This document shows positions 23,012 through 41,525 of a stretch of DNA of 64,000 nucleotides, piece by piece; positions within the stretch are counted from its first letter, which is position 1; every line of letters starts with the position of its first letter. A model generated the notes under the pieces. That model was not told the DNA's origin. It saw nothing but the letters and a program-made list of their open reading frames with translations, and did no database searches. Made by a program: the position numbers and the translations under genes. The stretch comes from a bacterium (GTDB lineage: Bacteria > Armatimonadota > Fimbriimonadia > Fimbriimonadales > Fimbriimonadaceae). Where the stretch lies: positions 806,001 to 870,000 of the forward strand of contig JAIXUN010000002.1 of NCBI GenBank assembly GCA_027483535.1, written 5' to 3'.

Positions 23012-24208
23012 ATGAACGCGGGATTCCAAAGTTGGCTCCAAACCGAAATTCAGCACCTGAAAGATCAAAACCTGTACAAGGTTCCGAAGATCTTGGAGAG
23101 CCCGGCGGGTGGCCGCGTAAAGATGAACGGAAAGGAGGTGATCAACCTTTCCAGCAACAACTATTTGGGTCTTGCCAACCACCCCAAAGTGCGAGAAGCG
23201 GCGCTGAAGGCGGTGGAAGAGTGGGGAGTTGGCGCGGGCGCGGTGCGGTGGATCGGCGGCACCATGGCGGTTCACGATGAACTTGAAAAGCGACTCGCCA
23301 CCTTCAAGCACACCGAAGCGGTTCTGGTCTTCACGGGCGGATTCACCGCCAACAGCGGATGCATCCCGGCGGTGCTGACCAAAGAAGACGTCGTCATTAG
23401 CGACGAACTCAACCACGCCTCCATCATCGATGGCGTTCGGCTGAGCCCGGCGGAGTACCGAAAGAGCCAGGGCTGGGTTTACGCCCACAAAGACATGGAT
23501 GCTCTTGAGGATTGCCTTCGACGAGCCGCTGACAAAGGCTTCAAGAAGAAACTGATCATCACCGATGGCGTGTTCAGCATGGATGGCGATATCGCCCCTC
23601 TGCCGGAGATCGTGAACCTCGCCGAGCAGTACGACGCGTTTGTGATGGTAGACGATGCGCACGCTTCGGGAGTCCTGGGCGATAAGGGCGCGGGGACGAC
23701 CTCGCACTTTGGCCTCTACGGTCGGGTGGATATCCAACTGGGCACGCTCAGCAAGGCGCTGGGCGTCATGGGCGGATACATCGCTGGAAGCGCTCCGCTC
23801 AAGGAATGGCTGATCAACCGGGGTCGACCGTACCTCTTCAGCACGGGTCACCCGCCGATGGTGGCGGCGGCGCTGATCGCCGCTTTGGACGTGATGGAGA
23901 ACGATCCGGAGCCCATGAAGCGGCTTTGGGACAATGCCAACAAGTGGAAGGCGGCTTTGACCGCCGAGGGCTTCGACACCATGGGCAGCGAGACCCCGAT
24001 CACGCCCGTTTATGTGGGCGATGAAGGCAAGGCTCAGCAAATGGAGCGGCTCCTTTGGGATGAGGGTGTTTACGCGCTGGCGATCGTTTATCCAACGGTT
24101 GGGCTCGGCAAGGCTCGTATTCGAACCATGCCATCCGCGGCGCACACGGAAGAGGATCTGGCTGAGGCGCTGGAAGCCTTCAAGCGGGTTCGCGACAAAC
24201 TGTCTTAA
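23012..24208 (+). CDS. kbl: glycine C-acetyltransferase (2-amino-3-ketobutyrate CoA ligase family)
   Basis: INLSSNNYLGLANHP, DELNHASIIDG, DDAHASGVLG, GTLSKALGVMGGY. Confidence 0.9.
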   Translation: MNAGFQSWLQTEIQHLKDQNLYKVPKILESPAGGRVKMNGKEVINLSSNNYLGLANHPKVREAALKAVEEWGVGAGAVRWIGGTMAVHDELEKRLATFKHTEAVLVFTGGFTANSGCIPAVLTKEDVVISDELNHASIIDGVRLSPAEYRKSQGWVYAHKDMDALEDCLRRAADKGFKKKLIITDGVFSMDGDIAPLPEIVNLAEQYDAFVMVDDAHASGVLGDKGAGTTSHFGLYGRVDIQLGTLSKALGVMGGYIAGSAPLKEWLINRGRPYLFSTGHPPMVAAALIAALDVMENDPEPMKRLWDNANKWKAALTAEGFDTMGSETPITPVYVGDEGKAQQMERLLWDEGVYALAIVYPTVGLGKARIRTMPSAAHTEEDLAEALEAFKRVRDKLS

Positions 24209-24405: not shown

Positions 24406-25698
24406 TTACTTCAGCTTGGACCGAAGAATGGAACCAAGGGGGCCTGGATCCTCAACTCCCAGCGGTACGATCGCCGTGATCGCGTTCTGAGCAAGGTGGT
24501 TCTGCTTCAGATTGCAAGGATAAACCCAGATGATCGCGGGATCTTTGGACTCCACCAGCACCACTCCGGCCAGCATGGAGAGGTCGGTTTTCACCCAGGC
24601 GCTTTCTCGCTCTTCCCAGGTCCACTTCACATCGCGCTGCCAGGCGCTGCCTGTAATGATCGTCCGTAAGATCTTCTTTCCGGGATAAAGCTTGTTGAAG
24701 GCGGTCTTCATCCCTTGCATCAGCGACGCTTTGTCTCCGCCCGAATACCCGTCGGTGGGAATCGGATTGTTGGCAATGATCTCCTTGGCGAGGGCTTTCA
24801 CTTTCGCTTCGCCGTTTGCTTTTGCAGCGTTTGCTTCTTTGATCAATGTTGGATCATAAGAAGGATCATCTTTCATCAAGATTTCGTAGCTTTGGCAACG
24901 AGGGTAAATGCCGTTGACCAGGTAATCCACCCGACCCGCGAGAGCAAGAAACATCTTGTCCTTAGCGCGCTCATTGATGACTGCGGTTAGCTCGGCAAGG
25001 AATTTCTTTTGCTTGGGTACTTCTTCTTTCTTGTACTTCTCGAAATCGCTTTTGATGCCGTCCATTTCAAGTTGAAGGGTGACGATTCTGGCCTTGAACT
25101 CTCGGTTGTCGGCTCGACCGCTTTGGGCACCGCCATACTTCTTGAGCAGTTCACTGGCCTGCGCAGAGATTTGAGCCCACTGCTTCGCCGTTTCCAGATC
25201 GGGAGTGGTGCCGCGAACATTGCCCCGGAATTTTCCGATCCGATCGATGAGTGCTTCGACCGTGGTCTGGTCCTTGGCTGCACCTTCGGCAAGAAGTTTG
25301 CCCTGCTCGCCGATGTTCTGCTGAGCCTTCTTCAGACGTTCCTCAGTCTCGGAAATCTTCTTTTCAGCGTCTTCAATCTCCTTTGCAACGGGAGCCTTCA
25401 ACACCTCGGGATCTTTGGCGTTGGACAATTGCTCTTTCGCCTTTTCGATCATCTCCTTCGCGGTTTCGATCTGCTTAGTGATCGACTTCACCGAGGAGTC
25501 TAGGATTTGACCATCCGAGCTTTGGTCGCCATCCATAATGCTGTTTGCTTTTTCTGCGGCAGAGAGCGCGCGAGTGACATATTGCTTTGCCCTTGCGATG
25601 GTTCCCTTCTGAGCAGATGCGGCCGGTAATACGGCTAGGGTGGTTGAGATGAGCGCGATGGCTAAAAAAGAACTCCTTGCCTTCATAAGACGATTCAC
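24406..25698 (-). CDS. secreted coiled-coil hypothetical protein
   Basis: Signal peptide (FLAIALISTTLAVLPAASAQ) and heptad-like KQIETAKEMIEKAKEQLSNAK...AEKKISETEERLKKAQQNI. Confidence 0.65.
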   Translation of the reverse strand: MNRLMKARSSFLAIALISTTLAVLPAASAQKGTIARAKQYVTRALSAAEKANSIMDGDQSSDGQILDSSVKSITKQIETAKEMIEKAKEQLSNAKDPEVLKAPVAKEIEDAEKKISETEERLKKAQQNIGEQGKLLAEGAAKDQTTVEALIDRIGKFRGNVRGTTPDLETAKQWAQISAQASELLKKYGGAQSGRADNREFKARIVTLQLEMDGIKSDFEKYKKEEVPKQKKFLAELTAVINERAKDKMFLALAGRVDYLVNGIYPRCQSYEILMKDDPSYDPTLIKEANAAKANGEAKVKALAKEIIANNPIPTDGYSGGDKASLMQGMKTAFNKLYPGKKILRTIITGSAWQRDVKWTWEERESAWVKTDLSMLAGVVLVESKDPAIIWVYPCNLKQNHLAQNAITAIVPLGVEDPGPLGSILRSKLK

Positions 25699-25771
25699 CA
25701 GGGCAGACCATCGTTCTTTTGACGATTGCGATCTTGCCTTTCTAATAGTGGATTCGGATAGGTGGGTAGTT

Positions 25772-25787
25772 CGTGATCCGGGTCACA
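25772..25787. promoter_or_regulatory. candidate CRP-type operator
   Basis: CGTGA-TCCGGG-TCACA in the divergent intergenic region (one mismatch to TGTGA-N6-TCACA). Confidence 0.45.
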
Positions 25788-25898
25788 AACAAGCGAGATT
25801 CTTCGCCGGTAAGGTGCATGTAAGGTTCTCGTGCTACGTCCATCAGGTGTGTAAACTGCACAGACCGACCGGTTTGGACCGGTCCACCGAGAATCTCG

Positions 25899-27731
25899 AT
25901 GACTCAGTCTCCGCAGCGAAAAATCGAGATGCTACACGTTGTCTATGCCGATGCGGTGGGCTATTCCGCGCTTTCTCTTGCCGAGAAAAGCGCCTTTGAC
26001 TCCGCGCTCGCCGAGACGGTGTCGCAGGTTCAAAGTCAGTACGAACCCGTTGCTAGAGTGGATAATGGCGACGGCTTTGCTCTCGTCTTTCGGGGCGATC
26101 CCGCCGAGACCTTTTACGCGGCCGAAGCACTGTTTCAAGGACTTCGGGCTCGCTCTTCGGTTGCAGTGCGGTTCGGAATCCATTCCGGAACGGGCTATCT
26201 GCGAGAAGACCTCAGCGGATCCAGTTCCATTTCGGGCCATGCCATCGAATTCGCCCAGCGAATCATGTCGTTGTCAGATGGTTCGGCGATTCTCTGCTCC
26301 AGCGCTTTTCGGCTTGCGCTCGATGCCTATCCGGAACTTCAGAGACGGTTGGGGTACCCACTCTTCGGGCGATCGAAGAACGGGAATTCGGTGGTCGCCT
26401 ATCCCATCCTAACGGGCGCGCAGAAATCGGTCGCCGTGATCGGCTCCCCACACGATCCGGTGGTGCTTAGATTCGCGACCGAGCTTCGCACCTTTTCAAT
26501 CCAGATCGTTCCGGACGTTCAATTCATCACGCTGGAACGGGAGTCGCTTTTTGCCGGATTGGCCGAAGTGGAGAGCAACCTCGATCTCCTTTTCGCCCTG
26601 GTCATTGTCGATAGCGGAGACGAGTTCTTCCGCCTCCTGGCAGAGAGCATCAGAGACCGCATTCGTTCCGAGGTGGTTGTTGTCCCCGTCACGCTCTCTA
26701 GCGAGGTCGAGGACGAAGTGGTTTTGGGGCAAGTTCGGAAATGCGCCCAAGCCATTTGGCCAGACTCCACACCAAAACCAACCGTTGGAGGAGTGGTCCC
26801 GCTCGGCTCCCCCTTTTACGTTTGGCGCGAATCCGACCGAGAATTGGAGGCGGCCATCGATCAGCGCGAGAGCATCGTGCTTCTCCGAGGGCCACGTCGG
26901 TTCGGAAAATCTTCCGCCGTGCTTCGCGCCACGCGGCGAGCGAAGGATCAAGGCATCAAGGTTCTGTCGATCGATCTCACCGCGGCCGATCGAAACGTGT
27001 TCGCCGATAGCACTCAGTTCTACCGATGGGTGGTCGGAAGGCTAATGGCGCAAATGGATCCCAAGCCCGCCCTGCCCGATTGGGAAGAGTGGTTAGGACC
27101 AAATTCCAATTTTGAAAATGCCATTCGCGAGATGTTTGGACACGGATCGGTGAGTCGGCTGCTGGTTTTTGATGGTGTTGACCGCTTGTTCGAGTGCGAC
27201 TTCCGCGACGACTTCTTTGGCCTTCTGAGAAGCTGGCACAATCGCCGCGCCGTGCAAGAAGAGGGCCCTTGGCAGTTCCTCACCGTGTTGTTGGCTTACT
27301 CTCGTTTCGGCGAAAACTTAGTTCGGGATGCGAACCAGTCGCCGTTCAATGTCGGACGCCGCGTGGACCTTGAGCCGTTCTCCCCAACTGCACTGGCGAC
27401 CCAAGCGAAACTTGCCGGAAAAGAGGACGAGGCCGACCGCTTAGAGGCACTCTCCGGGGGGCATCCGGCCTTGGCGATGGAACTGCTCGAGAGCTTAGGC
27501 TCGGTGCAGACGATCTCGACTGCAGAATTGAAGCACGTTCAATGGGTGCGCGAAAAGCTACAAGCGGCACCCGAAGTGAACAAAGACCTCCTCCGAATCC
27601 TGAACGGCTTACCACCTCATCACGCAACCAGTTGGGAACACTTGGTTTCGTTAGGCGTGCTGCAATACGGTGTTGAGCCCGCACGGCTCATTGGGTCTGC
27701 GATGAACTCTCTGCTATCGGTTGCTCCTTAG
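25899..27731 (+). CDS. class III cyclase-homology domain fused to AAA/STAND-like ATPase
   Basis: MLHVVYADAVGYSALS and NGDGFALVF (metal Asp residues), GHAIEFAQRI; Walker A LLRGPRRFGKSSAVLRATRRA; Walker B-like RLLVFDGVDRLF. Confidence 0.8.
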   Translation: MTQSPQRKIEMLHVVYADAVGYSALSLAEKSAFDSALAETVSQVQSQYEPVARVDNGDGFALVFRGDPAETFYAAEALFQGLRARSSVAVRFGIHSGTGYLREDLSGSSSISGHAIEFAQRIMSLSDGSAILCSSAFRLALDAYPELQRRLGYPLFGRSKNGNSVVAYPILTGAQKSVAVIGSPHDPVVLRFATELRTFSIQIVPDVQFITLERESLFAGLAEVESNLDLLFALVIVDSGDEFFRLLAESIRDRIRSEVVVVPVTLSSEVEDEVVLGQVRKCAQAIWPDSTPKPTVGGVVPLGSPFYVWRESDRELEAAIDQRESIVLLRGPRRFGKSSAVLRATRRAKDQGIKVLSIDLTAADRNVFADSTQFYRWVVGRLMAQMDPKPALPDWEEWLGPNSNFENAIREMFGHGSVSRLLVFDGVDRLFECDFRDDFFGLLRSWHNRRAVQEEGPWQFLTVLLAYSRFGENLVRDANQSPFNVGRRVDLEPFSPTALATQAKLAGKEDEADRLEALSGGHPALAMELLESLGSVQTISTAELKHVQWVREKLQAAPEVNKDLLRILNGLPPHHATSWEHLVSLGVLQYGVEPARLIGSAMNSLLSVAP

Positions 27732-30700
27732 GAGTGGTGAACACCAAAACGCGCCCGAGTGAATCGACCGAGACCACCGATCGGCCGCCATCGCAAAAGC
27801 GAGTCGCAAAGAGAGGGTTTGGACCTCGGTCGAGCACCAAAAGCTCCCGTCCGGTCGCGACGCTCCAAAGTCGTGAAGCCCCATCTCCGCAGGCGGTGAG
27901 CAGACGCTTTCCATCTGGGCTAAATGCGGTGTCGCCAACCCAAGACTTATGCTTCAGATTGAAGAGCATCTTGCCCGTGGCAACATCCCAAATCTTTGCA
28001 GTGTTGTCAAAACTGCTCGTGGCCAGTTGGGTGCCATCTGGGTTGAAACAGACTCGCCAAACGCGCGAGGTGTGACCTTTAAGAACCCGCGATTGAAAGT
28101 TCTGATTCAGCGCGAAGAGATTGATATCCCCCATTCCGGAGGCGATCCCAACGAGATCATCGGAGGGTGTGAAGCCAACTGCAATAGCCGCCCCTCCTCC
28201 CAAATCAACCTGATGGACAACCTTGCCGGATTCCGTATCAATGATTCTTACAAGGCCGCTGAACAGGCAGTGCACCAGCCACTTTCCGTTGTGAGAAAGG
28301 GCCATTGCTCGATAGACCCCGGATGGCGTAAGGACGCTCGTGGTCTTCAGCGACTTAGTATCTAGCCGAATCACGCTGCCATCATCGAGGGCAAAGTAAA
28401 CCCCACCTTTCGAATCAACGGAAGTCACCTGCCGGATGCGGCTAGAAACGGGGACTTTTACGTTTCTCACCGTTTGAAGAGTTCGGATTTGAATCTGTCC
28501 TTGTTCGGTTGCGAGAAGAACGGTGTCCGCGTCGATAAAATCTCCTTGAGCGTAAACCTGCCCGGCGAGATCAATCACCGAGGCATAGACGCCCGATCGG
28601 TACCAGACGGCCTTACCCGCTTCGAAGCCGACGAGGAACGATTCGTGATTGGAATCCACCCTAAGCTTGCCGATCTTGTACTCGGGCTTGGAGAGGACTG
28701 CCGGATTGGAGACCGGTTCCAACGCCCATTGGCGAATGGTCTCATCGAATGAGGAGCTCCAAATCGACTTGCCATCTAAGCTGAAGCGGACCTTTTGAAT
28801 TCGGTCCCGGTGTCCAACGTAGGTGGCAACTAGTGCTCCGGTTTCCAGATTGAATCGGCGAACCACCGCATCGGCGCCGCCGGAGATCAACCACTTCTTG
28901 TCTGGACTGATCGCAATGGAATACACCGGGCCCTGGTTGCCCAGGTAGGAAATTTCCTTTTTTCCGGTGCGATAGTTCACACGGACAATCTCTGGGTCGT
29001 CGCTGGCAAGGTACGCCGTGCCCGGCGTGGGAGCGAGAATGAACTGGTTGATGTGCCCAGAGTGGAGATAACGAACGGTTGTTTTGCCCGATTGAAAATC
29101 GACTTCGTTGAACTCTTTACTGTGCCGATAAGCCGCCTTGAGTCCGGAACCCGTGAATTCAAATCGACTGGCACTACAGGGCACGGGCTTCCCAACGGCT
29201 TGCCCAGATTGGTTGACAAGATAAGCCATCGGCTCAGCGCCCTTAAAGAAAATTCTGTAGCCGTTGCCCTCGCCAAGCAATCGCCCGGGAATGATCTTCG
29301 TGGAGTCCGGACTCACGAGTCGGTAGGTGTCTATCGGTCCGGTTGCGAAAAGCGGTCCGTCTCCATCGTGGCTCCCATTGTATTCCTCGGGGAGACGAAA
29401 CTCGAAAGCGGTCGAGCCTGACTCCGAGAAAGTAACAAACCCTTCCGTCCCAACCAGCGAACGGAGTTTGCCCGATGGATAGAAGTCGAAGTTGAAAGCG
29501 GTGCCAACGGTCGGAATCTGTTGGAGATGCTGCGAGATCTTCGCGTGGACATAATCCCATTCCCAACCCCGATATGGCGAGTCTTTCAGCGACTCCAGAA
29601 TGGTTGCGGCTCGGCTGTAGTTGCCGTCACTGATCTCGGCGGAAACGGACTGCATGCCTCCAACATAGGCCTCGTTGAGTGCGCGACTCTCGTTGTTCTT
29701 CGCGAGGGTCAAGGTTTGCCGAAGGTCGTTGTTAAGGTGGGTGTTCTGGACGACGAGCAGACTCAGAGCCATCGTGATGGCCCCAAAGACGGCAACGGAG
29801 GTTCCAACCGCTTGCCGTACGGCCTTCTTTTGCCGTTGAGCTTCGGCGTCTGGAAGATGGTCGCGAATCCACTGGCTGTCGAATGCTTCGGAGTAAATGC
29901 GGTTTCGTATTTGAATCCGACCGTCTCGTTCGGTAATCACTCCCGAGATGGCGAGGTAGTCCTGAACCTCGGGGTCGATGGGGCGTCTGCCTTGCCAGGT
30001 GGCCTTGGCTTGGATGGACTGAAGTGCCTTTAGAACGCGGGTTCTTGCCTCTTCACCTTGATAGTGGGGAATCGTTGGATTGAGCAGCAGGTTCGAAATC
30101 GCAAGAAGGTGATCGCTTTGGTAGCGATTTCCAACCGTCGAGAGCTGTTCGGAGAAGAATTCGTCGATGGTGGATTTCTCGCCACGATCGGTGCGGCGCT
30201 TCCATTCGTTGCAGGCTAACTGGGTGAGGTAGGGATGCCCGTTGGTCCATGCGAAGACGGAGGCGATCAATGCCTTTCCGACACTTTCGTCTTCCGAAAG
30301 TTCACGCCCGTACACCGTTAGATCTTGAATCGTGAAATCGTCAAGCTGAATTCGGCGACCTAAGATGACCTGCCCTCGATCGGGATTGCGAACCAATCCG
30401 ACGGGGGTGCAAGCGCCCGTAAAGCAGAAGACCAAGTTCCGAAGCGCGGGTTCATCGGTGCGTTTGAGATAGGAGCTTCTGATCGCGGCGAAGAAGTCGT
30501 CCGTATCGAATTTCAAGGATCGAACAAAGTCGATCTCGTCGATCCAGACGACAAGGGGATGCTCGCTCTTGCGGACCGCCGATTCCAGGTAGTCGATCCA
30601 CTTTCGACTAGGGCTTGCGTTCGGGGTTCCTTTCCAGTGCGCTCTTGCTTGTTCTGAATCGGCGAGTTGCTCTGCGCACCCAAAGAGGAGGGTCGCGTAC

Positions 30701-30951
30701 CACTGTTCCTCGGTGAGGTTGGACCCAAATCGCTGAAGATCGATCTTGATGCTTCGAAAAGACTCTGTTTCTAGCCGCTTAGAGATGCGGCTGATCAGGC
30801 TAGATTTTCCTTTCTGTCTGGAATCGAGAATGAGAGCGTAGTCTCTCTCTAGAAGTGTTTGCCAAAGATCTTCGTCCGCCCGTCTCTCAATGTAGCTAGG
30901 TGCGGAAGGAGGCAGGGTTCCTCCGAACGAGAAAAACGAAGAGTACGGCAT
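27688..30951 (-). CDS. AAA_35-like ATPase - TM - WD40 repeat protein
   Basis: DYALILDSRQKGKSSLISRISK P-loop, LVVWIDEIDFV Walker B, TM VAVFGAITMALSLLVVQ, several WD repeats (GHTSRVWRVCFNPDGTQLATSSFDNTAKIWD); ATG at 30951 (supplied ORF uses a TTG at 30987). Confidence 0.85.
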   Translation of the reverse strand: MPYSSFFSFGGTLPPSAPSYIERRADEDLWQTLLERDYALILDSRQKGKSSLISRISKRLETESFRSIKIDLQRFGSNLTEEQWYATLLFGCAEQLADSEQARAHWKGTPNASPSRKWIDYLESAVRKSEHPLVVWIDEIDFVRSLKFDTDDFFAAIRSSYLKRTDEPALRNLVFCFTGACTPVGLVRNPDRGQVILGRRIQLDDFTIQDLTVYGRELSEDESVGKALIASVFAWTNGHPYLTQLACNEWKRRTDRGEKSTIDEFFSEQLSTVGNRYQSDHLLAISNLLLNPTIPHYQGEEARTRVLKALQSIQAKATWQGRRPIDPEVQDYLAISGVITERDGRIQIRNRIYSEAFDSQWIRDHLPDAEAQRQKKAVRQAVGTSVAVFGAITMALSLLVVQNTHLNNDLRQTLTLAKNNESRALNEAYVGGMQSVSAEISDGNYSRAATILESLKDSPYRGWEWDYVHAKISQHLQQIPTVGTAFNFDFYPSGKLRSLVGTEGFVTFSESGSTAFEFRLPEEYNGSHDGDGPLFATGPIDTYRLVSPDSTKIIPGRLLGEGNGYRIFFKGAEPMAYLVNQSGQAVGKPVPCSASRFEFTGSGLKAAYRHSKEFNEVDFQSGKTTVRYLHSGHINQFILAPTPGTAYLASDDPEIVRVNYRTGKKEISYLGNQGPVYSIAISPDKKWLISGGADAVVRRFNLETGALVATYVGHRDRIQKVRFSLDGKSIWSSSFDETIRQWALEPVSNPAVLSKPEYKIGKLRVDSNHESFLVGFEAGKAVWYRSGVYASVIDLAGQVYAQGDFIDADTVLLATEQGQIQIRTLQTVRNVKVPVSSRIRQVTSVDSKGGVYFALDDGSVIRLDTKSLKTTSVLTPSGVYRAMALSHNGKWLVHCLFSGLVRIIDTESGKVVHQVDLGGGAAIAVGFTPSDDLVGIASGMGDINLFALNQNFQSRVLKGHTSRVWRVCFNPDGTQLATSSFDNTAKIWDVATGKMLFNLKHKSWVGDTAFSPDGKRLLTACGDGASRLWSVATGRELLVLDRGPNPLFATRFCDGGRSVVSVDSLGRVLVFTTPKEQPIAESSSQTQ

Positions 30952-30992
30952 GGAATTGAGATCACATATGAAGAAAAACTCTTGCAAACGCG

Positions 30993-31019
30993 TTGCTTGA
31001 ATTCAGGAAATTCTATAAT
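30993..31019 (+). promoter_or_regulatory. candidate sigma70-type promoter for the Crp-family gene
   Basis: TTGCTT - 15 nt - TATAAT in an AT-rich intergenic region. Confidence 0.45.
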
Positions 31020-31049
31020 ATTAAGGAAGTATAGCACCGGAGGAATTTT

Positions 31050-31688
31050 TTGATGAACTGGGCCGAGCACCTACAACGTATACCTATCTTTTCCAAGGTG
31101 CCGTTGCCAATTCTTCATCAACTCTCTGAGGTTTGCAGTGTCCGCACTCTTGAGCCCGAACAAGTTTTATTTCGGCAGGGAACTACCGGAAATGAAGTGT
31201 TCGTGGTGATGTCGGGTTCGGTGCGAGTTGAAGCGAGAAGCGATGCCGGATTAGACGTTACCATTGCGACACGCGGCCCCGGCGACGTGATCGGCGAGAT
31301 GGCGATTCTGGAAAACCAGCCCCGTTCGGCAACCGTCACCGCATCACGATTTTCTCGACTGCTCGTGCTCTCTCAGCATGATTTCACGCGGATGATCGAG
31401 CGAAATCCTCAACTCGCAGTCGAAATGCTCTCGCACCTTTCCGGCCGAATTCGACAGCTTTCGCTTACGATTCTGGAGAGCAGGACCGAGTCGCTGCGAG
31501 AGAGAGTGCATCATTACTTCTTGAGTAAGCGAGATAAAAACGACCTTGTTCTACTCGATGTTCCACAGCGGGTTGTGGCTCAAGAAATTGGTTGCACGAG
31601 AGAAGCTCTCAGTCGAAACTTATCACAACTAATCTTGGAAGGGAAACTCATAAAGATCTCCCGTTCTCAATACGTAATTAAGCCCTAG
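31050..31688 (+). CDS. Crp/Fnr-family transcriptional regulator (Crp1)
   Basis: cNMP pocket GEMAILENQPRSATV and HTH VVAQEIGCTREALSRNL. Confidence 0.93.
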   Translation: MMNWAEHLQRIPIFSKVPLPILHQLSEVCSVRTLEPEQVLFRQGTTGNEVFVVMSGSVRVEARSDAGLDVTIATRGPGDVIGEMAILENQPRSATVTASRFSRLLVLSQHDFTRMIERNPQLAVEMLSHLSGRIRQLSLTILESRTESLRERVHHYFLSKRDKNDLVLLDVPQRVVAQEIGCTREALSRNLSQLILEGKLIKISRSQYVIKP

Positions 31689-31741: not shown

Positions 31742-32497
31742 TTACTTTCGTCGTCGGCGACTCCTTGCAATTCCGAACAAGCCGACCGAAACGGCAAGAA
31801 TGGAAGTTGGCTCGGGGACCGCTGCCACCGCATTAACATGCAGGTTGTCAAAGTTGGTGGTGATCGAATCCGCAAAGGTATTGGTTGTCGCGTAGCTGAA
31901 GACGCCGAACTTTAGGTTCGACCCCACCAGACTGAAGTCGGGGTGACTGGAAAGATTCACGATATCGCCAGAGACAACATCGATCTCCGCAAAGTCGTTT
32001 GCGGTTAGGCCCGACGCGGAGATGGTGGAGTAGGGCGCAAACGGCGACTCATTGATCATTGCCGCATATCGTTTGCTCCCTTGCTCTAGGGCAAAGCCGA
32101 AGTACGCCGTGCCGAACTGGTCTTCGGAGAGCGACCGGTAGTCAACCCCCATGTTGACGTGCGACAACCCGGTCGAAGGAATCGTGTAGGCACTGCCAAA
32201 GGCAAGAGCGGTGACGGCCGTGATCTCGCCGGGTGCGATGGTGTGGTAGACCCCCATTCCCGATCCCGGGTTGCCCCCGGAGCTGGTGGTGAACACCGAA
32301 GTGGATGATAAGGTGCCGAACTTTACGTACGACTTCGCGTAAAAGAACGCCCCCATCGTGGGATCGTTGAAGGTGAACGCGGGGGACAAAGACGCGGCGG
32401 CCAAGAGACCAAAGGGAAGGACCATCTTCAGACCGATTCGCGACCGGTCGGAGCTCAATACAGTTTTCATTTTCAATCCAAGAGCGACATCGCTCAT
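31742..32497 (-). CDS. PEP-CTERM sorting domain protein
   Basis: C-terminus AVPEPTSILAVSVGLFGIARSRRRRK*; possible start ATG 32470. Confidence 0.88.
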   Translation of the reverse strand: MSDVALGLKMKTVLSSDRSRIGLKMVLPFGLLAAASLSPAFTFNDPTMGAFFYAKSYVKFGTLSSTSVFTTSSGGNPGSGMGVYHTIAPGEITAVTALAFGSAYTIPSTGLSHVNMGVDYRSLSEDQFGTAYFGFALEQGSKRYAAMINESPFAPYSTISASGLTANDFAEIDVVSGDIVNLSSHPDFSLVGSNLKFGVFSYATTNTFADSITTNFDNLHVNAVAAVPEPTSILAVSVGLFGIARSRRRRK

Positions 32498-32508
32498 GGA
32501 GAAAAGTG

Positions 32509-32547
32509 TGTGATCACTCTCGCAGGCTTTCAGTGATCGTGATCACA
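32509..32547. promoter_or_regulatory. two candidate CRP-type operators 23 bp apart
   Basis: TGTGA-TCACTC-TCGCA (32509-32524) and AGTGA-TCGTGA-TCACA (32532-32547), each one mismatch from TGTGA-N6-TCACA. Confidence 0.5.
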
Positions 32548-39393: not shown

Positions 39394-39413
39394 GGTGTGA
39401 TGGTTATCACACC
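39394..39413. promoter_or_regulatory. candidate CRP-type operator
   Basis: GGTGTGA-TGGTTA-TCACACC: perfect TGTGA-N6-TCACA with 7 bp symmetric arms. Confidence 0.65.
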
Positions 39414-39584
39414 GCATCTGGGGAGATGCACTCGGGCTTTGTTGAACAGGGGAGTTTGACTAAGCCGATCGAGCAGAGAGGTCCAGTTGCAGCGAGCGAT
39501 TTGTCGTTGCGGGAATGGAGGATAAATGAATCAATTCGAGTTACGGGATCGGCCGAAAGTGGCTTGGATTCTGAGGAGGTGTTC

Positions 39585-40760
39585 ATGATAGACGCCAACC
39601 TCGAATCATCCAAAACGGGAGGAACTCGCCGCATCATGGCGGTTCTCATGTCCGACGTTTACGGGTTCACAAGTGCGGTCGGCAAGCAAGAGGAGTTTGC
39701 CGCCTCTCGAGTAGAGGAAGACCTTGCCGAGTTCGCAAATATCATTGTCGCCAACAAGGGTCAAGTTGTGGCCGACCGAGGCGATGGTGTCAAAGCCGTC
39801 TTCGATTCCGGTGTGGACGCCCTGCGAGCCGCTCTTCAGATGCAAAGTTTGGTTCTCCAAAAGAACGCCAAGCTCGGACCAAACGCGTTGCGAGTTCGAC
39901 ACCGAGTCGGCATTCACGTGGGCGACGTCATCATCTCTGGCGATCACTATACGGGCCTCGCGGTTGCGATCGCGGCTCGTTTGGAAGCGCTTTGCCCGCC
40001 CGGAAAAGTGGCCTTCACCGATACCGTTCACGAGATGACTCGGCAAACCCTTCACTTCGATCGCTCTTTCATGGGGCAGTACGAGGTGAAGAATGTCGAG
40101 CATCCGGTGCGGGTTTGGGTTGGTCGGATTCCCGGAGACCTAGAGTCGATTGCGATGCCGACGAGCGCGGTTGTCGCGGGCAAACGGAAGGAGATCGTGA
40201 TTCAGCAGAAGTCTCACGATGGCTTCTGGAAGGCGATCACGGTCGTGATCTTGCTGGTTGTGGTGACGGCGGTGGGCTTCTATCTGCAGAAGATGGTTCT
40301 TTCTGATTCGGCGGAGAAGGGGGGAATCGTGGTTCCGCAAGGTTCGACGGGTACGACCAAACGCTCGAATGCTCCGACGGTCGATTGGAACACGCCGACT
40401 CCGGGACTCACGACAGGCGGCGGGAGTGGCAATGTCCAGCCCAGTCCTCGCTACCGACCGAAAGCAAAGCCTAATCCGGCCCCGGAGCAGAGGTCCGGTG
40501 ACGACGTGCCAGAAGCAGGTGCAACGCAAAAGCCGGAACCCAAGGTTGACCCTCATGCTGCCGCCACAGACGATGAGATTAAAAAGCTCTATCCCAACGT
40601 GACACAGGCAGAAAAGAAGACTGATCCGACCCCAGACGTCCCGGCCGCGGGATCGGGTGATTCTGGAGGAACCGGCTCCGACCAGCAGGCCACCGGGGGT
40701 GGAGCCGGTGATGGCGGGACGGGCGACTCGGATACCGGTGATCAGGCAGTTGGCGGCTAA
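39585..40760 (+). CDS. cyclase-homology domain protein with TM and low-complexity tail
   Basis: VLMSDVYGFTSAVG, VADRGDGVKAVF, GIHVGDVIISGDHYTGLAVAIAARLEAL; TM AITVVILLVVVTAVGFYL; strong SD GAGGAGGT before ATG 39585 (ORF listed from 39426). Confidence 0.85.
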   Translation: MIDANLESSKTGGTRRIMAVLMSDVYGFTSAVGKQEEFAASRVEEDLAEFANIIVANKGQVVADRGDGVKAVFDSGVDALRAALQMQSLVLQKNAKLGPNALRVRHRVGIHVGDVIISGDHYTGLAVAIAARLEALCPPGKVAFTDTVHEMTRQTLHFDRSFMGQYEVKNVEHPVRVWVGRIPGDLESIAMPTSAVVAGKRKEIVIQQKSHDGFWKAITVVILLVVVTAVGFYLQKMVLSDSAEKGGIVVPQGSTGTTKRSNAPTVDWNTPTPGLTTGGGSGNVQPSPRYRPKAKPNPAPEQRSGDDVPEAGATQKPEPKVDPHAAATDDEIKKLYPNVTQAEKKTDPTPDVPAAGSGDSGGTGSDQQATGGGAGDGGTGDSDTGDQAVGG

Positions 40761-40790
40761 TTTGCGAGACCTCATAATGCAAGCACAACC

Positions 40791-41525
40791 ATGAGGAACG
40801 ATCGAGACGCAAACGGAGCCCCAGGCGGCATCACGCCGACACAACTGGCGATCCTCAAAAAGACCGTCCTCTTCCGAGAACTCTCGGAAGAGGCGCTTCT
40901 CGAGCTGCTCCGTGATGCTCGCATTCGCAAATACAAAGAGAATCAGAATCTCTTTTGGGAAGGGGATGACGGCACCAAGGTTTTCGTGATCCTCTCCGGT
41001 CAAATCGCCATCGAGCGCTTTGCGGGTGATGGCTCGACTCAGGTGGTAGCGGTTCGCGGCGCGGGACAAGTGATCGGCGAGATCGCCCTTTTCCACCCCG
41101 AAGGTCGGAGCGCCGACGCCAGGACGACGATGGAGTCGGAGATCCTTGCCATGGATGGAGACTGGCTCATGGGCAAGATTCGGCAAACTCCGGATCTTGG
41201 GTTGGGCATGCTGACGCTGCTCGCCTCTAAGCTCCGCGAATCCATCGATGCGCGGGTGAACCTAAAACTCAAGGTGAGCCAACGACTGGCGATTGCCATC
41301 GTGCACGAATTCCGCGTCAATGGTCGCAAGAACGATGCGGGTGATTGGGAGCTCAACCACCGAGTCACCCAGACCGAATGGGGCTCCAGAATTGGCGCAA
41401 CTCGTGAACATGTGAACCGAGCGCTGAAAGAGCTTGCAGAAATGGGCCTTTTAGAGATAGAAAGTGGGAGCGTGGTCGTCACCGACCGCGACGGACTCAA
41501 AGAGTTCGCATTCCCACCAAGATGA
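40791..41525 (+). CDS. Crp/Fnr-family transcriptional regulator (Crp2)
   Basis: cNMP pocket GEIALFHPEGRSADA and HTH GSRIGATREHVNRALKEL. Confidence 0.93.
   Translation: MRNDRDANGAPGGITPTQLAILKKTVLFRELSEEALLELLRDARIRKYKENQNLFWEGDDGTKVFVILSGQIAIERFAGDGSTQVVAVRGAGQVIGEIALFHPEGRSADARTTMESEILAMDGDWLMGKIRQTPDLGLGMLTLLASKLRESIDARVNLKLKVSQRLAIAIVHEFRVNGRKNDAGDWELNHRVTQTEWGSRIGATREHVNRALKELAEMGLLEIESGSVVVTDRDGLKEFAFPPR

Follow-up and report, generated by a model that had tools for sequence, protein, structure and literature searches.

Four neighbouring genes in a 64,000-nucleotide stretch of a Fimbriimonadaceae genome (contig JAIXUN010000002.1; hereafter the window) form a real, conserved unit. They encode a protein with a signal-peptide-like N-terminus (S), two proteins with AAA_35 ATPase domains (C and W), and a Crp-family regulator (R). 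Their assignment to one system is well supported because of the adjacency of C and W, the matched trees and fusions of these two proteins, the C-W-R arrangement in three genera, the co-occurrence of S, and a conserved operator. The reading favored here, with a probability of about 0.5, is that the locus encodes a paired-STAND module for outside-in signalling that has a Crp-type regulator of its own and feedback. Its features, by position in the window, are:

24406-25698, minus strand: S, an open reading frame of 430 aa with a signal-peptide-like N-terminus, coiled-coil-like
25772-25787, S/C divergent promoter: Crp-like putative operator CGTGATCCGGGTCACA, one mismatch to TGTGA-N6-TCACA
25899-27731, plus strand: C, 610 aa, with a cyclase-homology domain, a degenerate middle domain, and AAA_35
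25926-26393, plus strand: cyclase-homology domain of C (residues about 10-165), with a structure match to the Rv1900c and CyaC cyclases
26394-26768, plus strand: degenerate middle domain of C (residues 166-290), a low-confidence model of alternating strands and helices
26790-27509, plus strand: AAA_35 domain of C (residues 298-537; Pfam E=1.5e-41)
27688-27731: overlap of the C and W 3' ends, 44 bp
27688-30951, minus strand: W, with AAA_35, a predicted transmembrane helix, and two WD40-like propellers
27736-29529, minus strand: the two WD40-like propellers of W (Pfam WD40 and AlphaFold model)
29743-29805, minus strand: predicted transmembrane helix of W, a hydrophobic segment right after the AAA domain
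30097-30921, minus strand: AAA_35 domain of W (Pfam E=8.5e-20)
31053-31688, plus strand: R, a Crp-family regulator with cNMP-binding and HTH domains
32509-32547: two further Crp-like sites, one mismatch each, upstream of a PEP-CTERM gene (31742-32497)

A sequence-only reading had placed four genes here, two of them AAA genes that face each other and overlap, and had described W as an ATPase joined to a transmembrane helix and WD40 repeats. All four open reading frames are present and C and W overlap at their 3' ends, as they also do in G185, G186, and G190 and, by 48 bp, in G020. The frame of W extends to 30987 (TTG start), and the ATG at 30951 is the likelier start; the frame of R spans 31050-31688 on the plus strand, with an ATG at 31053. 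Both proteins carry the AAA_35 modules claimed for them, scoring 142.8 bits (C) and 71.3 bits (W) at a Pfam gathering cut-off of 27 bits for AAA_35 (PF14516). The described architecture of W is likewise borne out by its Pfam AAA_35 and WD40 matches, the predicted helix, and the modelled propellers. The P-loop GKS and the Walker B DE of the W ATPase are intact, and the first Gly of its P-loop is Asp. The C ATPase has kept Walker A and lost the Walker B Glu; its motifs are eroded in the cassette clade, and most C ATPases elsewhere keep them. A transmembrane helix was predicted at the same place, with more Lys and Arg preceding it, in 52 of the 69 W proteins, while 17 have no clear helix there.

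The adjacency of the two AAA genes, on which the earlier reading had staked its case, was found across genomes of Armatimonadota, Chloroflexota, Cyanobacteriota, and other groups. A W-type AAA_35 lies within 1.5 kb of 77 of the 99 distinct C-type AAA_35 proteins, and 9 of the 22 C-type genes without a nearby W are located at contig edges. The trees of C and W match (Mantel r=0.88, 74 pairs), and the two proteins are fused in two cyanobacteria (L180 and L208); the pair has co-evolved. The N-terminal modules are swapped among C proteins and include cyclase plus TIR, TIR, SARP-like wHTH plus BTAD, trypsin plus TIR, and CHAT. The C-W-R arrangement occurs with identical layout in G000, G020, G185, G186, and G190, which represent three Fimbriimonadaceae genera. 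Across all C-W pairs, nearby Crp genes are not more frequent than expected by chance; an excess is confined to these five cassettes. Relatives of S were identified in G020, G185, G186, and G190, with a distant one in G112; among 291 genomes, S was found only in the five cassette genomes apart from this distant match. S is not linked to the C-W pair in G185, G186, and G190. It had no Pfam family over the cut-off, and a sequence search of solved structures found nothing for it.

The class III cyclase-homology domain that had been attributed to C is below Pfam detection (C gave no PF00211 match at E values of 1 or less and was not among the PF00211 hits of the genome), yet the AlphaFold model of C matched the solved class III cyclases 1ybt, 1wc1, and 1ybu with a probability of 1.00 (Foldseek). 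Rv1900c is the closest solved structure to this domain, and Rv1900c (lipJ) was also the sole meaningful match of C to solved structures by sequence. Rv1900c has cyclase activity, and its specificity residues are non-canonical. Active sites of class III cyclases are formed only between two such domains. Both metal-binding Asps, the GDG, and the Arg are invariant in the five orthologues of C; the specificity Lys is missing, and all five have Glu at the position of the transition-state Asn. The domain may not make cyclic nucleotide because this Lys and Asn are missing. It is nonetheless the best conserved part of C (53% vs. 21-46%). The middle domain, with 21% identity to G020, occupies the position of the TIR domain in related C proteins. 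TIR is present in sister C proteins; a TIR identity for the middle domain found no support from profiles, with a score of only 3.8 bits and an hhalign probability of 0.1%.

R matched cNMP_binding (E=1.8e-23, 82.7 bits) and HTH_Crp_2 in Pfam and has the features of Crp/Fnr regulators, namely a CNB domain with the phosphate-cassette Glu and Arg, plus an HTH. The GEM and PRSA motifs of its phosphate cassette are conserved in the five orthologues, with GE and RSA invariant, in agreement with the cNMP-pocket residues noticed before. The site at 25772-25787 has a P of about 0.004 within the 200-bp S/C gap, and the same gap in G020, the closest relative, contains a site with 0 mismatches (P about 5e-5); the CRP-like site first seen in this divergent promoter therefore stands. 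A TGTGA-N6-TCACA operator is present in the S/C or W/R promoter of every one of the five cassettes and was absent upstream of 44 other C-type genes. The genome encodes further Crp proteins besides R, and it is probably R that binds the operator sites rather than one of these. As judged from motifs and promoter sequences, these results support a cyclic-nucleotide link on the regulator and operator side. The original proposal of one cyclic-nucleotide-linked system is thus upheld for the unit and for this side, and not for the synthesis side, where the canonical Lys and Asn are missing.

In the favored model, W would be a membrane sensor with its AAA_35 ATPase in the cytoplasm, a transmembrane helix, and its propellers on the far side, and C would be its partner that carries the output module, here the class III cyclase-homology domain. 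When the propellers receive a signal, the W ATPase may be driven to assemble with its counterpart in C, which is weak or inactive. This assembly would bring cyclase domains together and alter the level or the binding of a nucleotide. R would then read the cyclic nucleotide and act at the TGTGA-N6-TCACA sites in the promoters of the cassette itself, including the promoter of the secreted S, which would close a feedback loop.

The same C-W-R module may also contain a cyclase-homology domain that serves only for non-catalytic nucleotide binding or dimerization, with R answering to cNMP from other cyclases such as the CHD-TM protein at 39426-41525, which has its own Crp neighbor. Since R would then sense the cyclic nucleotide of other enzymes, Crp control would be an input of the module and not its output. 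This is a credible reading, albeit not the expected one. The two residue losses in C agree with it, as do the seven further cyclase-domain proteins encoded in the genome and the degeneration of the middle domain and the ATPase of C, whereas the conservation of the cyclase domain, its invariant metal Asps, GDG, and Arg, and the activity of Rv1900c in spite of its own non-canonical residues argue for a working enzyme. Inactive cyclase domains have also been reported in conflict systems (PMC7159879). That the genes are chance neighbors, two unrelated AAA genes that merely adjoin a Crp gene and a secreted-protein gene, is extremely improbable. Most C-W pairs elsewhere are without R and S, and the left flanks of the cassette differ (KBL, trpE, and his genes), but this explanation is already contradicted by the C-W adjacency, the matched trees, and the layout common to three genera, and it also leaves aside the co-occurrence of S and the conserved operator.

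An NLR-like anti-phage or conflict system, which the earlier reading had set beside stress signalling and in which W or C would recognize a trigger of an invader and the output module would kill or arrest the cell, is possible and rather unlikely. A conflict system is in line with the effector swapping in sister pairs (TIR, CHAT, and trypsin), with an occurrence that is patchy among relatives (30 of 121) and multiple within genomes, and with the related genes present in 68 plasmid records, some of them conjugative; published paired-STAND systems have been proposed to counter invaders (PMC8195603). On the other hand, SARP-type DNA-binding versions that are common in the same clade, the Crp-type control, and a propeller that is predicted to be extracytoplasmic fit signalling. 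Moreover, the killing-type domain is degenerate in this lineage and the retained module is cyclase-like. PADLOC gave no specific defense system for the window proteins, 24 C-type relatives, and 22 W-type relatives, and no defense genes were recognized around the window. No known defense model fits the locus.

The literature searched yielded no paper that combined AAA_35, a cyclase, and WD40, and AAA_35 as a topic returned only unrelated papers among the matches listed. Such pairs may reportedly have been noted by Leipe et al. in 2004 (Npun2340/2341 family). The locus resembles Pycsar in that a class III cyclase domain is encoded close to a cNMP-binding domain on another protein, but C was not recognized by any PycC model, R has a DNA-binding HTH instead of a TIR or transmembrane effector, and R matches PycTIR of PADLOC only through its CNB domain. 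A STAND-type ATPase coupled to WD40 propellers as the presumed sensor is reminiscent of APAF-1 and WD40 NLRs; here, however, sensing and output would be divided between W and C, and a membrane location is predicted for the propeller protein. A wHTH-BTAD joined to a P-loop NTPase is shared by AfsR/SARP-type regulators and sister C proteins, whereas C of this locus is without a DNA-binding domain and its NTPase is an AAA_35 with a membrane partner.

In organization, the locus resembles the nSTAND2 two-gene counter-invader systems (eLife 2021, PMC8195603), which also comprise two adjacent STAND-type NTPase genes, one of them eroded and with a variable output module. In nSTAND2 systems, which are organized as operons, GT4 or HEPN predominates as the output (PMC8195603), whereas the C-type proteins scanned had no Pfam match to GT4 or HEPN. 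By this description, the C-W pairs are set apart by AAA_35 in both proteins, by cyclase, TIR, SARP, CHAT, and trypsin outputs, by the helix and WD40 of the partner, and by ATPase motifs that most C proteins keep. The MoxR-vWA ternary systems (2020, PMC7159879) likewise combine a core that depends on an NTPase with interchangeable modules (cyclase, TIR, and trypsin) and include inactive cyclases, but neither MoxR nor vWA was found among the cassette proteins. The earlier term "undescribed" was too strong for the general idea, since both paired STAND systems and conflict proteins with cyclase domains are in the literature (PMC8195603, PMC7159879). The degenerate middle domain of C, the frequent occurrence of the W helix in its family, and the recurring C-W-R cassette, with S, go beyond the earlier reading.

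As a tentative and somewhat doubtful generalization, AAA_35 pairs may constitute a widespread, unnamed system of transmembrane STAND signalling. In it, a membrane-anchored ATPase with propellers would control a second ATPase whose output module is exchangeable (cyclase, TIR, SARP DNA-binding, CHAT, or trypsin), and the cyclase version of Fimbriimonadaceae may form a closed nucleotide circuit together with its own Crp regulator. Most studies of NLR-like STAND ATPases have dealt with single proteins of the cytoplasm. In the present pairs, sensing and output would be divided between two ATPase subfamilies that co-evolve, one of them predicted in the membrane, and one core carries either immune-type outputs (TIR and CHAT) or gene-regulatory ones (SARP) in exchange. 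If true, the favored reading would link bacterial immune-type ATPases to ordinary signal transduction and would provide a small cassette that is open to testing and has a defined operator.

Named relatives of the C-W pair described below belong to Fimbriimonadaceae and other Armatimonadota, so the host is probably a Fimbriimonadaceae member. The 3.77 Mb genome that contained the window harbored four adjacent genes, flanked by a KBL-type aminotransferase and a PEP-CTERM protein gene:

23012-24208: KBL-type aminotransferase, left flank of the cassette
24406-25698, minus strand: S, ORF with a signal-peptide-like N-terminus followed by a coiled coil
25899-27731, plus strand: C, ORF
C, residues about 10-165: cyclase-homology domain (AlphaFold model, structure match)
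C, residues 166-290: middle domain
C, residues 298-537: AAA_35 domain (Pfam, E=1.5e-41)
27688-30951, minus strand: W, ORF
31053-31688, plus strand: R, ORF for a Crp-family regulator
31742-32497: PEP-CTERM protein gene, right flank, directly downstream of R

Relatives of C were found in 30 of the 121 genomes searched, and the AAA_35 proteins of the fetched loci split into C-type and W-type subfamilies that were located together. Pairs were counted as distinct sequences in these loci and in 79 additional loci (Armatimonadota, Chloroflexota, Cyanobacteriota and Acidobacteriota, among other groups). A W-type gene lay within 1.5 kb of 77 of 99 C-type genes, and nine of the other 22 were located at contig edges. 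As a genome of ~3,000 genes has few of either type, adjacency by chance would be expected at roughly 1% or below. The C and W trees were concordant (Mantel r=0.88, 74 pairs; r=0.83 in the Armatimonadota set), with no permutation reaching such a value, and both AAA_35 types were fused in single proteins of Nodularia (locus L180, 7968-10244) and Trichormus (locus L208, 7986-10202). The sequence-only reading had named a lack of conserved adjacency of the two AAA genes in related genomes as grounds for refuting its proposal of one system, and the proposal withstands this test. The pair is a general paired-ATPase architecture. Related C-type genes also occurred on 68 plasmid records, many from cyanobacteria, showing that the wider family is mobile. 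Armatimonadota-type pairs were also present on two JADZEW contigs (L157 and L167) titled Methanoregulaceae archaeon; these equal contigs of the same-family genome G030, and the archaeal title appears to be mistaken.

C varied between pairs in its exchangeable N-terminus, which included cyclase plus TIR, TIR alone, wHTH-BTAD (SARP-like), BTAD plus TIR, trypsin plus TIR, CHAT and, in cyanobacteria, small HTH-like domains judged by eye. SARP-like versions were mostly convergent with W, and cyclase-TIR versions were mostly tandem. Window C and its counterpart in genome G020 formed a deep clade of their own in the tree. The most divergent Armatimonadota pair comprised a trypsin-TIR-AAA_35 protein (L127 5115-7193, genome G106) and a W-type partner. 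Small stand-alone cNMP-binding proteins were encoded immediately 3' of cyclase-TIR-AAA_35 genes in two genomes of the window's genus (L088 8434-8904 and L109 8553-9041).

The cassette is real and conserved. G020 contained S-C-W-R in the order and orientation of the window, with a 48 bp C/W overlap and different flanking genes. The two cassettes were 53% identical in the cyclase domain, 46% in the C AAA, 21% in the C middle domain, 51% in the W AAA and 33% in the propellers; their S proteins shared about 32% identity and their R proteins about 50%. C-W-R in the window layout also occurred in a third genus (G185, G186 and G190), with a MauG-type peroxidase in place of S and, in G185 and G186, the same KBL neighbor. 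These di-haem peroxidase genes (L220 3277-4449, L222 3043-4200) occupied the divergent slot beside C, where the window has S. S itself lay elsewhere in the third genus, apart from the AAA pair (L217 5936-10037, L218 9835-13919, L219 722-2077); in L217 it closed a series of genes for secreted proteins, one of them PEP-CTERM and others resembling lipoproteins, and several of these genes had Crp-like sites upstream. S matches were detected in only six of 291 phylum genomes, including all five cassette genomes (naive chance 4e-10, the true strength being lower with three of the five from one genus).

The window S/C gap contained a TGTGA-N6-TCACA site with one mismatch (chance probability 0.0042), and the corresponding gap in G020 contained a perfect site (5e-5); none was found in 44 other C-type upstream regions tested. 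Perfect sites were located in the W/R promoter region of G185, G186 and G190, and CRP-type sites near or upstream of S in these genomes. The stricter TGTGATN4ATCACA occurred three times in the window genome and twice in G020 (once as the S/C site), was missing from 18 of 19 other same-genus genomes, and gave zero matches when reversed. Two Crp-like sites were observed in the promoter of the window PEP-CTERM gene (region 31742-32547). Because sites occur at the cassette promoters, at S and at the PEP-CTERM gene, a Crp-type regulon would span the cassette and secreted proteins. R carried a canonical cNMP phosphate cassette together with a recognition helix of the Crp kind. It is the obvious candidate for the regulator at these sites; it is possible that another Crp protein acts there instead.

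The Pfam scan did not report the cyclase domain of C, and the confident AlphaFold model of this region matched the Rv1900c and CyaC cyclases structurally. All five cassettes retained the two metal Asps, the GDG motif and the catalytic-region Arg; the Asn position was Glu in all five, and the specificity Lys was absent from every relative aligned. The modified active site is a conserved variant rather than the product of free decay, and cAMP synthesis by this domain cannot be assumed. A second cyclase-Crp locus (window 39396-41525) lay 8 kb from R, with a perfect TGTGATGGTTATCACA just 5' of an ORF (39426-40760) that encodes a TM segment and a cyclase domain; next came a second gene of the Crp family (40791-41525). 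The middle domain of C was modeled at low confidence as strands alternating with helices. Related C proteins carried a clear TIR domain at this position; the TIR profile gave only 3.8 bits here, so a TIR identity was dropped and the domain was called degenerate.

W combined an AAA_35 domain with a hydrophobic helix, a stalk of helices and two WD40-like propellers (Pfam and AlphaFold model). Of 69 W proteins, 52 had such a helix after the AAA domain, and in 38 of these 52 the K+R content ahead of the helix exceeded that behind it, which favors a location of the propellers outside the cytoplasm; cysteine was somewhat scarcer on the propeller side. The C ATPases of the window and G020 had lost the Walker B Glu, and that of G190 had lost the Walker A. 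Because these motifs are eroded and those of W are intact, W may serve as motor and sensor, with C as the partner bearing the output module.

The nearest published idea to the C-W pair, in the accessible text of PMC8195603, is the two-gene nSTAND2 system, in which two STAND NTPases are encoded side by side and the eroded one bears an effector, usually GT4 or HEPN. The accessible text of PMC7159879 describes cyclase, TIR and trypsin modules, inactive cyclases included, in MoxR-vWA ternary systems; neither text describes this combination, with its Crp regulator and a WD40 partner in the membrane. A defense role for the cassette is possible, and PADLOC models gave no specific match. The best reading of the cassette is outside-in signaling with Crp feedback, in which putative cyclic-nucleotide production would be the key step.
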